This document shows, piece by piece, positions 13,103-61,896 of a stretch of DNA of 64,000 nt. The stretch is from Gemmatimonadota bacterium. GTDB taxonomy: Bacteria; Gemmatimonadota; Gemmatimonadetes; Longimicrobiales; Gaopeijiaceae. A program made the translations under genes and the position numbers. Numbering within the stretch: position 1 is the first letter of the stretch; every line of letters starts with the position of its first letter. The stretch covers positions 1-64,000 of the forward strand of contig JBBEBG010000018.1 in NCBI GenBank assembly GCA_040882465.1. The letters run 5' to 3'. The notes under the pieces are model-generated. The model was not told where the DNA came from. It searched no databases and worked only from the letters and a program-made list of their open reading frames with translations.

Positions 13103-13838
13103 AGGCATGCGGCTTCTCCTCGTCGTCACCTTCGCGATGGCTCTCGCCGTTTTCGCGCCGAGTTTCCGAGAGGTCCTCTCCGGCATCAAGGCGTTCGAGG
13201 TCTCCGAGGTCGCCGTGGAAGGGAACCGGTATCTGAATGCGGCCGAAGTCCGCGACGCGGTGGCGATCCCCGACGGGGCGAACCTCTGGGATGACCTGAA
13301 CGCCGCGGAGACACGGCTCCGCGCGCACCCCGGCATCGCGGGGGTCCGCATCACGAGGAGGATCCCCGGCCGGCTCGTCGTACATGTCACCGAGCGGGAG
13401 CCGGTCGCGCTCTTCCCGAATCCGACGCTCGTTCCCCTCGACGCGGAGGGGGTGCTCCTCCCGATCGACCCGGCCACGCACAGGCTGGACCTCCCCCTCG
13501 TGCATCCGCGTCGCGACCCGGCCGGGCACGGCCCCCTCCTTACCGCCACCCAGTTGCGCGCCCTCGTTTCGGAGCTCTCGGCAATCGAAGGGCTGGATCC
13601 GAAGGTCGCGGCGACGTTGTCGGACGTCGCTTTCGACCTCTGGGGCGACGTGATGGTGAGGCTCGAGTCGGGGGTCACCCTGGTTTACCGGATCCCGCTC
13701 ACGGCCCGCCGCCTTCAGGAGGGGCTCGCCGTCCTCGCGGACATACGGGAGCGGCACCCCGAACGCACCCCCGCCGCGGTGGACCTGCGCTTCGCGGACC
13801 AGGTCGTGGTGCGTCTCTCGCCGGGGAGGGCGCGCTGA
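13089..13838 (+). CDS. ftsQ: Cell division protein FtsQ (DivIB), POTRA domain
   Basis: FtsQ is a bitopic divisome scaffold that binds FtsL and FtsB. The 249-residue product has a basic start, one membrane segment at about residues 9-24, and a POTRA domain at about 34-102. The POTRA domain includes the EVSEVAVEGNRYL strand, the AVAIPDGANLWDDL turn and RRIPGRLVVHVTEREP, all typical of FtsQ. An ATG two codons downstream (13095) is an equally possible start; no clear ribosome site separates them. The gene overlaps murC by 14 bases and lies 2 bases before ftsA. Confidence 0.9.
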   Translation: MRMRKGMRLLLVVTFAMALAVFAPSFREVLSGIKAFEVSEVAVEGNRYLNAAEVRDAVAIPDGANLWDDLNAAETRLRAHPGIAGVRITRRIPGRLVVHVTEREPVALFPNPTLVPLDAEGVLLPIDPATHRLDLPLVHPRRDPAGHGPLLTATQLRALVSELSAIEGLDPKVAATLSDVAFDLWGDVMVRLESGVTLVYRIPLTARRLQEGLAVLADIRERHPERTPAAVDLRFADQVVVRLSPGRAR

Positions 13839-24159: not shown

Positions 24160-25197
24160 ATGGCCGACGTCGTGCTCAACCTGAGGGACGAGCGCCCCAT
24201 CTGGACCATTCCCGCATGGGCCGTGGGTGAGATTGCGGGCGCGATTCCCTCGAGTTGGATCCTTCACATTGCATCGGGCCCCGCCGACGGCTCGGGGGAC
24301 GGCGGTGGGTCCCCGCCGCCCGAGGTCCTGGATGCGCTTCAGGGAGCTAAGATCTACTTCGGCTTCGGGGTGCCCCCCTCGGTCCTCGAGGTGGGAAGAG
24401 GGACCCTTCGCTGGGTTCATTCCGCGGCGGCAGGCGTCGGGAGCTCCCTGCAAGAGGCGATGCGTGCCTCCGAAGTGCGATTCACGAACTCGGCCGGAAT
24501 CCACGGCCCTCCGATCGCCGAGACGGTGCTCGCGATGCTCCTCCATTTTGTCCGAGGACTCGACTTCGCGGTCGCGGCTCAGGCGCGGGGCACCTGGGAC
24601 ACGGAACCGTTTCTCTCGGCCGAGACTCCAGTCCGGGAGATCGCGGGGATGACCGTCGGGATCCTGGGATACGGCGGGATCGGGAGGGAGATCGCCTGCC
24701 GGGTAGGGGCGCTCGGTGCGCACGTGCTCGGACTTTGCCGCGCGGAGCGGGGCGGGGACGTAGATGAGATTGGCGTCGAGCTCCTCCATGGGAAGGCGGG
24801 GCTCGACCGCCTCGTCGCGGAGAGCGAGGCGCTCGTCGTCGCCGCTCCGCTGACGGCGGAAACCCGGGGAGTTCTCTCCGCCGAAAGGATTCGAGCGATT
24901 CCGAAGGGGGCCCTCCTAATCAACGTCTCCCGGGGCGCCCTCGTGGACGAGGAAGCCCTCGTCGCGGCGCTCCGGGACGGCCACCTCCGCGGCGCGGGGC
25001 TCGATGTGTTCGCGACCGAGCCCCTTCCCGTGGATCACCCCCTCTGGAACCTTCCGAACGTCCTTCTGACCCCGCATACGGCGGCGGTCTCGCGGGGATT
25101 CTGGCGGCGGGAGACCGATCTGATCCTGGAGAACTTACGGCGCTTCCTCGCGGGCGAATCACTCATCAACGAGGTGGATCGGGTGCGGGGGTATTGA
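24160..25197 (+). CDS. D-2-hydroxyacid dehydrogenase family protein (NAD(P)-dependent)
   Basis: The 345-residue product belongs to the D-isomer-specific 2-hydroxyacid dehydrogenases, which interconvert 2-keto and D-2-hydroxy acids. The Rossmann motif GILGYGGIG lies near residues 167-175. The catalytic triad is visible in order: arginine in INVSRGALVDE, glutamate in DVFATEPLP and histidine in LLTPHTAAVS. Substrate cannot be told from sequence. Phosphoglycerate dehydrogenase is less likely because there is no C-terminal ACT or ASB domain. It is the last gene before the inverted-repeat element at 25211. Confidence 0.88.
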   Translation: MADVVLNLRDERPIWTIPAWAVGEIAGAIPSSWILHIASGPADGSGDGGGSPPPEVLDALQGAKIYFGFGVPPSVLEVGRGTLRWVHSAAAGVGSSLQEAMRASEVRFTNSAGIHGPPIAETVLAMLLHFVRGLDFAVAAQARGTWDTEPFLSAETPVREIAGMTVGILGYGGIGREIACRVGALGAHVLGLCRAERGGDVDEIGVELLHGKAGLDRLVAESEALVVAAPLTAETRGVLSAERIRAIPKGALLINVSRGALVDEEALVAALRDGHLRGAGLDVFATEPLPVDHPLWNLPNVLLTPHTAAVSRGFWRRETDLILENLRRFLAGESLINEVDRVRGY

Positions 25198-25210
25198 GCC
25201 GGCGGCGAAC

Positions 25211-25330
25211 GCGGCGCACAACGAAGGGGGGAGGGGTCGGCCTCCCTACCATCCGCTGTCCCGCCCCGCCGCCCCTCCTCCGCGCCTCCCGGACGGTCGG
25301 CCGACCCCTCCCCCCTTCATTGTGCGCCGC
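25211..25330. repeat. Long inverted-repeat element, copy 1 (between convergent genes)
   Basis: Two 32-base arms (25211-25242 and 25299-25330) are complementary at 31 of 32 positions and enclose 56 bases. The inner left end reads CTCCCTACC and the inner right end reads CCCGGACGGTCGGC. The same two motifs flank the loop of the second element at 60522-60647, although the arms of the two elements differ. It lies 13 bases after the dehydrogenase stop and 14 bases beyond the mazG stop, so its transcript from either side would fold into a very stable hairpin and could end or protect both mRNAs. No U tract follows the stem. Confidence 0.9.
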
Positions 25331-25344
25331 TTCCCAGTGAGGTC

Positions 25345-26187
25345 CTATTTCTCCCCCCGTTTCACCTCGTCCCAGAGCGCATCCATCTCCTCGAGGGAGC
25401 CGCCCGGGATGGGGAGGCCACGTTCGCGTGCCAGTAGTTCCATCGCATTGAATCGCTTGCGGAACTTAATGTTAGCTTCTTCTAGTGCAGGTCCGGCATG
25501 AAGCCCGGAGAGGCGAGCGAAATTCACGACCGCGAAGAGGAGATCGCCGATTTCCTCCGCCAACCGAAGTGGGTTTGCATCGGCCGCCGCCTCTTCGACC
25601 TCGGCCAGCTCTTCTTTCACCTTCGCCATCGCGCCGGAAGGGTTGGCCCAGTCGAATCCGGCACTCGAGGCCTTCTCCTGGAGGCGGTGCGCTCGGAGGA
25701 GGGAGTCGAGGCCGCCCGGGAGACCATCCAGGGTGCGGAGTCCACTCGCATCACCTTCACGCTGGGCGGTTTCGCGCCTCTCCCGGGCCTTGATCGTTTC
25801 CCACCCCACCTTTTCTCCGGTCCCGAAAAGGTGCGGGTGACGGCGCGCGATTTTCTCCTCGAGTCCACGCACGACCTCTTCGCGGGTGAACCTCCTCTCT
25901 TCTTCGCCGATCACGATCTGAAAGGCGAGATTGAGAAGGAGGTCGCCGAGCTCGTCCCGGAGTGCGCGTTCATCGCCGCCGTGAATCGCATCCACGACCT
26001 CGTGGGTTTCTTCGAGGAGATGGGGAACGAGAGTGCTGGGGGTCTGGCGCCGGTCCCAGGGATCGTGCTCGCGGAGGAAGGAGACGAGCGCGAGGGCGCG
26101 ATCGAGGACGCCCGGACGGTCGGAAGAGGGCGGGCGGGGATCCGCGGATCGGCTTCCCTCCTCGCCCCCATGCTTGCCGCTTCCCAT
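25345..26187 (-). CDS. mazG: Nucleoside triphosphate pyrophosphohydrolase MazG
   Basis: MazG hydrolyses (d)NTPs to monophosphates and pyrophosphate, acting in pool sanitation and stress response. The protein has tandem MazG domains. The first, around HLLEETHEVVDAI...ELGDLLLNLAFQ, carries the EExxE and ExxD metal ligands. The second lies around VKEELAEVEEAA...EEIGDLLFAVVNFAR. I chose ATG 26187 (280 residues) because GGAGAG lies 3 bases upstream. A longer frame to 26295 would nearly reach the alr start and adds a low-complexity leader. It is convergent with the dehydrogenase and divergent from alr. Confidence 0.92.
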   Translation of the reverse strand: MGSGKHGGEEGSRSADPRPPSSDRPGVLDRALALVSFLREHDPWDRRQTPSTLVPHLLEETHEVVDAIHGGDERALRDELGDLLLNLAFQIVIGEEERRFTREEVVRGLEEKIARRHPHLFGTGEKVGWETIKARERRETAQREGDASGLRTLDGLPGGLDSLLRAHRLQEKASSAGFDWANPSGAMAKVKEELAEVEEAAADANPLRLAEEIGDLLFAVVNFARLSGLHAGPALEEANIKFRKRFNAMELLARERGLPIPGGSLEEMDALWDEVKRGEK

Positions 26188-26307
26188 CAGCTCTCCGGTC
26201 GCTCGCGCTTCCCCATCCGACCCTCCCAAAGATTCGGGACCCCGCGGAGGATCGCCGCCTCCGTACGCCCTTGCTCGGGGGGTACTTTGTGGCATCTTTC
26301 TGCGACC

Positions 26308-27438
26308 ATGTCAACAGAACCGCGGAGTCGGGCCTGGGTGGAGGTGGACGCGGGGGCGCTCCGGCGGAACCTCGAGACCGTTCGTGTGGCCGCCGGGGAG
26401 AGGGTGGGCCTTCTCCCGATGTTGAAGGCGGATGCGTACGGGGTTGGCCTCGCGGGAGCGGTCCGCGTATTCGAACCGGAAAACCCCTGGGGATATGGGG
26501 TCGCCACCGTTCCGGAGGGGATCGCGGTCCGGGAGCTCGGGGTGACTCGCCCGATTCTCGTCCTGTCACCGATTCCACCGGGAGCGGAGCACGCGGCGGT
26601 CGCGGCCGGGCTCGCGCTCTCGGTCTCGGATACGGATGCGGCGCAAAAGATCGCTTCCGCGGCGGCGGGTCTTGCGGTGGAGGCGACGATTCACGCGGAG
26701 GTGGACACGGGGATGGGGCGCGCGGGACTCGACTGGAGGGGAGTGGATCGATGGGGGCCCGAGCTGGTGGCGATCTCGGGGCGGGGGGTCCGCTGGGAGG
26801 GGCTCTTCACCCATCTGTACTCCGCGGATCAGGCGGACCCTGGGTCGGTCTCCCTACAGGCGGATCGGTTTCGCGCGACCATAGACGCGGTCGAGGCGGC
26901 CGGGTGGAAGAGAGGACTGCTTCACGTGAACAACTCGGCAGGGACCCTTCGCCGACCGGATCTGTCGTTCGACATGGTGCGCCCCGGAATCTTTCTTTAC
27001 GGGGGCGACGCGGGGGAGGGGCTCCCCGCTGCGGAGGAGGTCGTGAAGGTCCGCTCGCGCATCGTGCTCGTGCGGGAGGTCGCGGCGGGAACGACGCTCG
27101 GCTATGGCGCCACCTATACCGCCACCCGGACGGAACGGTGGGCCACGCTCGGGATCGGATATGGCGACGGGCTCCCGCGGGCCCTTGGAAACCGAGGAGC
27201 GGCGCTGGTCCGGGGACGCAGGGTGCCGGTCATCGGAAGGATCTCGATGGACCTGACGGTGGTAGACATCACGGACCTCCCGGGGGCGGAGGATGCGGTG
27301 GGTGAGATCGTCACTCTGATCGGCTCCGACGGGGAGAATCGAATCCCGTTGGAAGAGGCCGCCGGGCTCGCCGGAACGATCGGTTACGAAGTGCTCACGG
27401 GGTTGACCGGCCGGCTCCCACGAGTCTGGTTAGACTGA
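26308..27438 (+). CDS. alr: Alanine racemase
   Basis: Alr is a PLP-dependent enzyme that makes D-alanine for peptidoglycan. The 376-residue product has the PLP lysine at K40 in MLKADAYGVG, the N-terminal TIM-barrel domain (EVDTGMGRAG, LFTHLYSAD), and the C-terminal beta domain with the second catalytic tyrosine in GIGYGDGLPR and the RISMDLTVVD segment. The consensus KANAYGHG is slightly altered to KADAYGVG. A much longer upstream reading frame runs antisense through mazG and is not coding. It supplies substrate for a D-Ala-D-Ala ligase used by MurF. Confidence 0.95.
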   Translation: MSTEPRSRAWVEVDAGALRRNLETVRVAAGERVGLLPMLKADAYGVGLAGAVRVFEPENPWGYGVATVPEGIAVRELGVTRPILVLSPIPPGAEHAAVAAGLALSVSDTDAAQKIASAAAGLAVEATIHAEVDTGMGRAGLDWRGVDRWGPELVAISGRGVRWEGLFTHLYSADQADPGSVSLQADRFRATIDAVEAAGWKRGLLHVNNSAGTLRRPDLSFDMVRPGIFLYGGDAGEGLPAAEEVVKVRSRIVLVREVAAGTTLGYGATYTATRTERWATLGIGYGDGLPRALGNRGAALVRGRRVPVIGRISMDLTVVDITDLPGAEDAVGEIVTLIGSDGENRIPLEEAAGLAGTIGYEVLTGLTGRLPRVWLD

Positions 27439-59727: not shown

Positions 59728-59730
59728 GTG

Positions 59731-60522
59731 ATGGATAGGCGCGAACGCATGCGGAGGAGGAGGGACCAACGGCCGCAAGCGGGGGGGCGCGCCTCGGAGC
59801 TGGCCGGGCCGTCCGGGGAAGGGCCCCGGGGCGGAAGAGCTCGAGGCGGAGAGCTCTGGGAGTGGACGAAGACCATCCTCCTCACGCTCGGCCTCCTGGT
59901 CGTCATCCGCACCTTTCTCGTCCAAACCTTCGTGATCACTTCGGGTTCGATGGAGGACACCCTCCTCGTCGGCGACTTCCTGATGGTGAACCGCGTCGCG
60001 CTCGGAACCCGGATTCCCGGGACCCTCACCCTGACCCCTGGATATTCTGAGCCGGAGCGGGGCGATGTGCTCGTCTTCGATCCCGCGCACGAAGAGGGGA
60101 TGAAGCTGGTGAAGCGCCTCGTAGGGATGCCGGGGGACACGCTCGAGATGCGCCAGAAGCGGCTCTACCTGAACGGGGCCATACAGGAAGAGCCCTATGT
60201 GAAATGGAGCGACCCAACTGGCGACGACCAGGATCCGCGCATGCTCTGGCAACGCGACCACCTGGCCCCCGGGGTGGATCCGGCGGCATACCGGCCTACG
60301 CGCGACACTTGGGGTCCGCTGGTGGTCCCGATGGGGCACTATTTCATGCTCGGGGACAACCGGGATTTCTCGCTGGATTCCCGATATTGGGGCGTGATCG
60401 AACGCTGGCGCCTCGAAGGACGGGCGATGTTCTTCTACTTCTCCTACAACCGCGATTCGACCGAAGCCTTTCCCTTTTTCCGCGAGATCCGTTGGGACCG
60501 GATCGGGAACAGGATCGAATAG
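59731..60522 (+). CDS. lepB: Signal peptidase I
   Basis: LepB removes signal peptides from exported proteins. The 263-residue product has an arginine- and glycine-rich cytoplasmic tail, one membrane segment at about 47-63, the nucleophile S73 in TSGSMEDTL and the general-base lysine K128 in KLVKRLVGMPGD. The C-terminal motif MLGDNRDFSLDSRYWG is intact. ATG 59731 is preferred because GAGGAGAGG lies about six bases upstream; GTG 59728 is the adjacent alternative. Its stop codon is part of the left copy of an 8-bp repeat that flanks the next element. Confidence 0.95.
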   Translation: MDRRERMRRRRDQRPQAGGRASELAGPSGEGPRGGRARGGELWEWTKTILLTLGLLVVIRTFLVQTFVITSGSMEDTLLVGDFLMVNRVALGTRIPGTLTLTPGYSEPERGDVLVFDPAHEEGMKLVKRLVGMPGDTLEMRQKRLYLNGAIQEEPYVKWSDPTGDDQDPRMLWQRDHLAPGVDPAAYRPTRDTWGPLVVPMGHYFMLGDNRDFSLDSRYWGVIERWRLEGRAMFFYFSYNRDSTEAFPFFREIRWDRIGNRIE

Positions 60523-60647
60523 GGTCGCGGGGAGGGAGGCGGAGGGGAGCATGCGTCTCCCTACCGTACTTTTTCGCCCCGCGCGTTCCGGGGTTCGGCC
60601 CCCGGACGGTCGGCGCATGCTCCCCTCCGCCTCCCTCCCCGCGACCC
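60522..60647. mobile_element. Long inverted-repeat element, copy 2, flanked by an 8-bp direct repeat
   Basis: Two 34-base arms (60522-60555 and 60614-60647) are perfectly complementary around a 58-base centre. The centre contains a nested hairpin CCGGGG-TTCGGC-CCCCGG at 60588-60605. The inner arm ends carry CTCCCTACC and CCCGGACGGTCGGC, shared with the element at 25211-25330. TCGAATAG occurs immediately before (60515-60522) and just after (60651-60658), as a target-site duplication would. It encodes no protein. It lies between the convergent genes lepB and rlmN, where its hairpin could also end both transcripts. Confidence 0.8.
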
Positions 60648-60711
60648 CCGTCGAATAGTGAATAACTGCGGGGGCTTGGGGGAACCGGAGCATGTCGGAA
60701 ATTGAGTAGAC

Positions 60712-61896
60712 CTACCCTGTCGTAAGTCTCCGGAAGGGCGCGGCTAACCGGAATGGGAGAGCAATCCCACGGTCCAATGCCCTCGCACCCACACGCCCGC
60801 CCATATGCACCAGAGACTTCGCCCGTAGCTGCCCGCAAGCCGCGCCGATGTCTCGCCCGCGAGGCTCCCGGACCGCGACCGACACTCCTGCCCGCTCCAA
60901 CGTCCTGCGGAAATGCTCGACCCGATCGGGAGTGGACGGTTTCCAGTCCTGATCGGGAATCGGGTTGTAGGGGATGAGGTTCACGAAGGCTCGAACCTCC
61001 CGCGCGAGACGCGCGAGCTCCGGGGCCAGCTCGTCCGCGTCGTTGATCCCCCCGATCATCGTGTATTCGAAAGTGACCCGGCGCCCCTTTCCCTCGGTGA
61101 AGCGCCGGACCGCCTCGATCACCTCGGGGAGCGGGTAACGACGCTCGAGGGGGATCAGTTCACCGCGGAGCTCGTGCACCGGGGCGTGAAGCGAGAGCGC
61201 GAGCCCGAACTGTTCCGGGCGCGCGGCGAGTTCGAGGATCCCGGGGACCACGCCGACCGTCGAGACCGTGATTCGGCGCGCGCCCATGCCAAAGCCCTGA
61301 TTCAGGATGGTCAGAGATGCGTTGACGGCGCTCCTGTTGGCGAGGGGCTCGCCCATCCCCATGTACACCACGTTGGTGAGCGACCCATAACCCTCTTCGT
61401 GGGCCCACCGCCGTGACGCCCGGTACTGCCCCGCGATTTCTCCGGCGGAGAGCTGGCGCGAAAACCCGCCCCAACCCGTCGAGCAAAAGGTGCACCCCAT
61501 CGCGCACCCGGCCTGGGAAGAGATGCAGAGTGTGAGCCGATCCTCCGTTGGAATGAGGACGGATTCGACCAGGTCCCCGTCGTCCAGCCGCCAGAGATGC
61601 TTCGCCGTCCCGTCCGCGGACCGTGACATGGTGGCGAGGTGCGGCTCACCCAGGGTGAAGGCGGCCGCCAGGGCCCCGCGCTCCGCGGCGGGGAGATTGG
61701 TCATTTCCTCGATGGTGGCAACATCGGACTCGTACACCCATTTTCGTACCTGTTCGGTCCGGAAGGCGGGTTGGCCTCGGGCCGCGAAGTGAGCCCCGAC
61801 CGCAGAGGCGAGCTCCGCCGGGGTCAGGTCGAGAAGAGTCACGGGCCCGCTTGCCGGGGACGGCGGCTTCCCCGAGCCCCGATCCGATTCCGTCAT
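60712..61896 (-). CDS. rlmN: 23S rRNA/tRNA adenine-C2 methyltransferase RlmN
   Basis: RlmN is a radical-SAM enzyme that methylates A2503 of 23S rRNA and A37 of some tRNAs. The 394-residue product has the cluster cysteines C131, C135 and C138 (GCAMGCTFC), the MGMGEPLAN motif, LNLIPYNPIPD-like NLIPYNPI and the mechanistic cysteine in DIGAACGQL. About 28 extra residues follow this last motif, longer than usual. The start at ATG 61896 is divergent from aspS across a 242-base gap. Confidence 0.94.
   Translation of the reverse strand: MTESDRGSGKPPSPASGPVTLLDLTPAELASAVGAHFAARGQPAFRTEQVRKWVYESDVATIEEMTNLPAAERGALAAAFTLGEPHLATMSRSADGTAKHLWRLDDGDLVESVLIPTEDRLTLCISSQAGCAMGCTFCSTGWGGFSRQLSAGEIAGQYRASRRWAHEEGYGSLTNVVYMGMGEPLANRSAVNASLTILNQGFGMGARRITVSTVGVVPGILELAARPEQFGLALSLHAPVHELRGELIPLERRYPLPEVIEAVRRFTEGKGRRVTFEYTMIGGINDADELAPELARLAREVRAFVNLIPYNPIPDQDWKPSTPDRVEHFRRTLERAGVSVAVREPRGRDIGAACGQLRAKSLVHMGGRVGARALDRGIALPFRLAAPFRRLTTG

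Follow-up and report, generated by a model that had tools for sequence, protein, structure and literature searches.

Among the described bacterial repeats close to the one analysed here are the REP/BIME elements, which are GTAG- or CGTC-tagged palindromes lying between tandem and convergent genes and carrying complementary changes in their stems (PMC3733652). Two hairpins of the window (the whole stretch of 64 kb that was analysed) belong to a repeat that we call family 1, and this family resembles REP/BIME in being a short intergenic palindrome of tandem and convergent sites, in forming head-to-head pairs and in combining conserved bulged parts with complementary stem changes. It differs from them in its dimensions, with arms of 25-36 bp and a spacer of 56-66 nt against REP stems of 5-13 bp and loops of 2-20 (PMC3733652), in having 9 copies only, and in that the stems, not the loops, are its most variable part. 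A GTAG or CGTC tag on a 5-13 bp stem, the REP trait, was not found in family 1, as the outer arm ends differ in every copy, and the RAYT protein (Y1 HUH transposase, PF01797) had no match in the 99.6% complete assembly, with 5 of 14 control genomes positive. MITEs are also small, dispersed, bounded by inverted-repeat arms and without coding capacity; however, the family-1 arms differ between copies and are not conserved transposase sites, there is no target-site duplication, and an autonomous partner was not found. Bidirectional intrinsic terminators share with the window copies a GC-rich hairpin placed between convergent genes and near both stop codons, but family 1 has a long conserved loop core, far longer arms and no U-tract.

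Anatomy and distribution of family 1

The two longest near-perfect inverted repeats of the window lie at 25211-25330 (copy 1) and 60522-60647 (copy 2). In copy 1, the 32-nt arms 25211-25242 and 25299-25330 are separated by 56 nt and are paired at 31 of 32 positions (97% complementary), the same count as in an earlier note made from the letters of this DNA. Copy 2 is an inverted repeat of 60515-60566 with 60603-60654, whose inner part, 60522-60555 and 60614-60647, pairs at 34 of 34 positions. Folded as RNA, the 120-mer of copy 1 reaches -82.2 kcal/mol against -49.5 in shuffles (z -9.0), and for both copies single-stranded folding gives z -9 to -11 relative to shuffles. On the forward strand, copy 1 consists of the left arm (25211-25242, GCGGCGCACAACGAAGGGGGGAGGGGTCGGCC), a left core motif (25242-25254, CTCCCTACCATCC), a variable, pyrimidine-rich loop (25255-25285), a right core motif (25286-25299, CTCCCGGACGGTCG) and the right arm (25299-25330); on the same strand of copy 2, the left arm (60522-60555) is followed by the left core motif (60557-60569, CTCCCTACCGTAC), the right core motif (60599-60612, CCCCCGGACGGTCG) and the right arm (60614-60647). 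As had been noticed before, CTCCCTACC (at 25242 and 60557) and CCCGGACGGTCGGC (at 25288 and 60601) are common to both copies at the inner arm ends, and as an exact spaced pair they occur at just these two loci in the 3.53-Mb genome. The final GC of CCCGGACGGTCGGC is already part of the variable arm, and the family consensus is CYCCYGGACGGTCG; the loop block CGCCCCGC, also pointed out earlier, is present in both window copies but absent from the other seven. Copy 2 is flanked by an 8-bp direct repeat, TCGAATAG, at 60515-60522 and 60651-60658, which overlaps the stop codon of lepB.

A covariance model built from four copies (R1) gave nine matches in the genome, all with E below 1e-3 (6.7e-14 to 3.4e-4): C18:25222 (+) and C18:60537 (+), which are the window copies, C36:187246 (+) and C36:187558 (-), C4:6743 (-) and C4:11686 (-), C8:122597 (+) and C8:122804 (-), and C17:91070 (+). 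A nine-copy model (R2), trained on those copies, returned the same nine with E of 2.5e-16 to 9.9e-11, and the right motif alone revealed two copies beyond the window pair. The earlier note, which knew two copies and proposed such a search, had allowed that there might be no further ones, or that they might be placed at random and lack arm covariation; what we found was nine copies, located at gene 3' ends and with strong covariation. R2 detected 0 copies in 120 further genomes of the same family and 0 outside the own genome in a 395-genome phylum sample, and although these large searches used stricter filters, all nine own copies were recovered under them; no same-genus genome was among the relatives listed. 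There was no match in viral contigs or phages and a single weak partial one in plasmids, and Rfam at gathering score held no match, the sub-threshold ones being nearly all to miRNA-hairpin models. Exact CTCCYGGACGGTCG occurs 6 times in the genome, every time inside an element, and the remaining three copies have CCCCCGGACGGTCG. Since the right motif is confined to the nine copies, the search gave no larger element that carries it, and the arms are unusable as a query for an autonomous parent. Nine records with the exact core pattern in GTDB genomes were set aside, as no palindrome is visible in their printed sequences and they seem to match by chance, probably within coding DNA.

A family-1 element is about 110-140 bp long, its spacer of 56-66 nt being enclosed by two complementary arms of about 25-36 bp, and its parts follow the order arm, CTYCCTRCCRTMC, pyrimidine-rich loop of varying length, CYCCYGGACGGTCG and second arm; C36:187558 deviates by having CGACCTGCC as its left motif. 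The core is partly paired, with CCRTMC opposite GGACGG and TCCCTR unpaired on one side, and a run of nine neighbouring core columns, CGACCGTCC, does not vary across the family. There are two subtypes, one with CCRTCCGCGG and the other with CCGTACYTYTTC and CCCCCGG, and each of the two loci with head-to-head pairs (C8 and C36) holds one subtype. The head-to-head pairs at L061:6590-6918 and L060:7240-7661 are 86 and 203 bp apart and BIME-like, in a genome without Y1 transposase.

Gene context of the copies

With genes taken from ORF lists and ten of the flanking proteins compared with Pfam, we found all nine copies to be intergenic and next to gene 3' ends, in four convergent, three tandem and no divergent loci; this is the tally of neighbouring genes that had been suggested earlier. 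The convergent loci are those at 25211 and 60522, the C8 pair and C4:11686, while the codirectional ones are the C36 pair behind hemB, C17 behind an aspartokinase gene and C4:6743 behind a cysE-like gene (named from sequence alone). In most copies, 0 to about 30 nt separate the stop codon from the start of the arm, and the arm of C4:11686, read on its own strand, opens with TAG, the stop codon of acs. As intergenic gaps of at least 100 bp in the sample divide into roughly 14 convergent, 31 tandem and 16 divergent, the orientation bias of the elements is modest.

Both window copies do lie between convergent genes, as the earlier note stated. Copy 1 is preceded by a D-isomer 2-hydroxyacid dehydrogenase gene (24160-25197, + strand, PF02826), whose stop is 13 nt before the arm, and followed by a convergent MazG pyrophosphohydrolase gene (25345-26295, - strand, PF03819), whose stop is 14 nt after it. 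At copy 2, the signal peptidase I gene lepB (59728-60522, + strand, PF10502) ends at the arm and converges with an RlmN-like radical SAM gene (60712-61896, - strand, PF04055 and PF21016). Neither window copy has a U-tract or T-run directly after the arms, such that canonical intrinsic termination is not indicated, and a terminator scan of 24500-26500, limited to loops of 3-8, gave no site at the element.

Arm covariation in two unrelated repeats

Structured RNAs are usually recognized by helix arms that covary around a core that is conserved. In the nine-copy alignment of family 1, 17 of 19 arm pairs are altered on both sides, 94% of the arm cells are paired, and there are 58 covarying cells, compared with 18.1 for shuffles and 8-11 for slid registers, which bears out the conserved core and covarying arms first seen in the two window copies. 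Nearly all pairs are Watson-Crick, with only one G-U cell on the modelled strand. Among the transition mismatches, 9 of 10 would form G-U pairs if the other strand were read instead of the modelled one (two-sided binomial about 0.02, for a small number from related copies), and this 9:1 bias is suggestive of RNA-level selection on that opposite strand.

The same genome contains a second, unrelated fold-back repeat (family 2), with arms that start TAGTG (TAGTGTC) and a core of AGCACCGAG...CGAATGC, for example at L096:11963-12127 and L098:11633-11801; the family also occurs at L114 near 13553-13790 and L155-L163. Like family 1, it has a conserved core and arms that match within but differ between copies; unlike family 1, it has a longer spacer (about 111-184 nt), TA adjoining the arms, a recognizable outer arm motif, and matches in 52 of 156 related genomes (own included), many of which cover the core only, some copies in relatives being without clear arms. 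The nine main copies found by DNA search in the own genome have an arm identity of 0.96 within copies versus 0.69 between them, and 16 of 26 positions are altered on both arms in some copy. In 16 copies from several genomes, hand-picked for a clear arm pair, the arm identity is 0.95 within versus 0.61 between, with 67 covarying cells versus 16 in shuffles. Family 2 has no match in Rfam, and we take it for a dispersed, TA-flanked, MITE-like repeat whose mobility we infer.

Thus, two unrelated repeat families in one bacterial group show RNA-like covariation, and one of them resembles an ordinary mobile repeat. Because family 2 has the same covarying arms, this feature alone cannot separate structured RNAs from mobile repeats. 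The claim that the fold is preserved and not the letters holds in so far as the arms covary, but family 2 behaves alike and hence a functional RNA need not be implied; nor is the proposal that such arms are unlike ordinary transposon ends supported, since the TA-flanked, dispersed family 2 shows them too.

Concerted arm drift as the proposed explanation, and its rivals

The explanation toward which we lean, with somewhat more confidence than doubt, is that family 1 is a REP/MITE-like repeat of the fold-back kind, specific to its lineage, in which the two arms drift together and which acts in place as a bidirectional 3'-end hairpin. The copies would have spread within the lineage by some route and, after the spread, both arms of each copy would have drifted together. 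As neither a transposase nor an autonomous partner nor general target-site duplications were found (copy 60522 alone has an 8-bp direct repeat, for which the chance rate is about 8%), mobility of family 1 is deduced from dispersal only. The joint drift could come from homogenization of the arms at the DNA level, by polymerase template switching between the hairpin arms and aided by selection for an intact hairpin, a process that would erase arm-to-arm differences and leave copy-to-copy differences. Arm homogenization through polymerase template switching is documented, and bacterial cases are cited (PMC8604942). Once in place, the hairpin may act on the flanking transcripts of both directions as a 3'-end or terminator-like structure, as proposed for REPs and judging by its position only.

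Pairwise, the family-1 arms have no clear similarity between copies (mean z about 0.6), whereas the loop middles of subtype A retain similarity, which indicates that the arms changed faster than simple shared drift predicts. The in-register arm identity between copies is 0.48, mostly due to a common G-rich block located 11-20 bp from the core (p below 0.001 versus shifted registers). Given this fixed distance, the arms look element-borne, which argues against their copying from the local flanks. Inverted repeats with a spacer of at most 130 nt and an arm score of at least 19 were absent, apart from families 1 and 2, from 400 kb of the own genome sampled at intervals, and none was found in 800 kb from four relatives; this scarcity elsewhere suggests that long arms come with the elements. 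Homogenization would account for the near-perfect Watson-Crick arms of both families, and selection on an RNA hairpin for the G-U bias and invariant core of family 1, and the two may both act; the 9:1 mismatch bias is easier to reconcile with RNA-level selection than with homogenization of the DNA alone. Family 1 gives a clean test of arm homogenization against RNA selection. Should homogenization be the cause, the many copies would form a natural test of how template switching joins the two arms of inverted repeats in bacteria, and searches for new RNAs could be misled by such repeats; otherwise, the window contains a new 3'-end RNA element.

Selection of the hairpin as RNA, in line with the structured RNA of the earlier note and for instance as a protein-binding 3' UTR element or a terminator with arms covarying by compensatory mutation, is possible but in our opinion unlikely. 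Such an RNA would be made from the strand opposite to CTCCCT...GGACGGTCG, would read GACCGTCC-RGGAGCGG...CCGCGGAYGG-YAGGGA and might contain a tandem G-A internal loop. It would agree with the strong arm covariation, with the transition-type mismatches leaning to G-U on this strand, with the CCATCC/GGACGG pairing of four copies, which is complete only with a G-U on the same strand, with the run of invariant core columns and with the adjoining gene 3' ends. However, the arm pairs are nearly all Watson-Crick, perfect arms of 25-34 bp exceed the needs of a terminator or a protein site, the dispersed MITE-like family 2 covaries in the same way, and there is no relative in Rfam for copies that are restricted to one genome. 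A lineage-specific structured RNA or protein-bound hairpin at gene 3' ends that, with an invariant bulged core read on this same strand and with arms that drift freely yet compensate, ends or protects convergent transcripts seems to us rather doubtful.

It is improbable that native bidirectional terminators received a 60-nt core in their hairpin loops and that each copy thus has the arms of its host terminator. The arms are indeed dissimilar between copies, the copies stand directly behind stop codons, and a few native hairpins have G-rich 5' arms (L096:1187-1231 and L105:7981-8023), but native short-loop hairpins are rare and their stems reach at most 20 bp against 25-36 bp in the elements, in which the arms keep a constant layout with respect to the core. 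The motif CGAAGG...CCTTCG is too common to tell whether the arms stem from native terminators. The two native hairpins, with GCGAAGG...CCTTCGC, stems of 17-20 bp and loops of 5-9 nt, are probably bidirectional terminators without a U-tract, and that at L096:1187-1231 sits between convergent genes.

The palindrome-templating of the earlier note, by which an inserted core copies the local flank in inverted form, is very improbable: the arms are locus-specific, the one of C4:11686 begins with the acs stop codon, and anchored inverted similarity beyond the arms is weakly present (permutation p about 0.01 at 40-80 nt and 0.10 at 20 nt), but unanchored flank alignment is no better than mismatched controls, the arms stop near stop codons without extending into genes, and a common arm layout, with the G-rich block at constant distance from the core, goes with no general flank signature. 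We also observed that 6 of 9 left arms carry a 6-bp self-palindrome located 1-6 bp from the core, such as GCATGC at 60549-60554, where about 0.26 are expected per arm (p about 0.01, post hoc).
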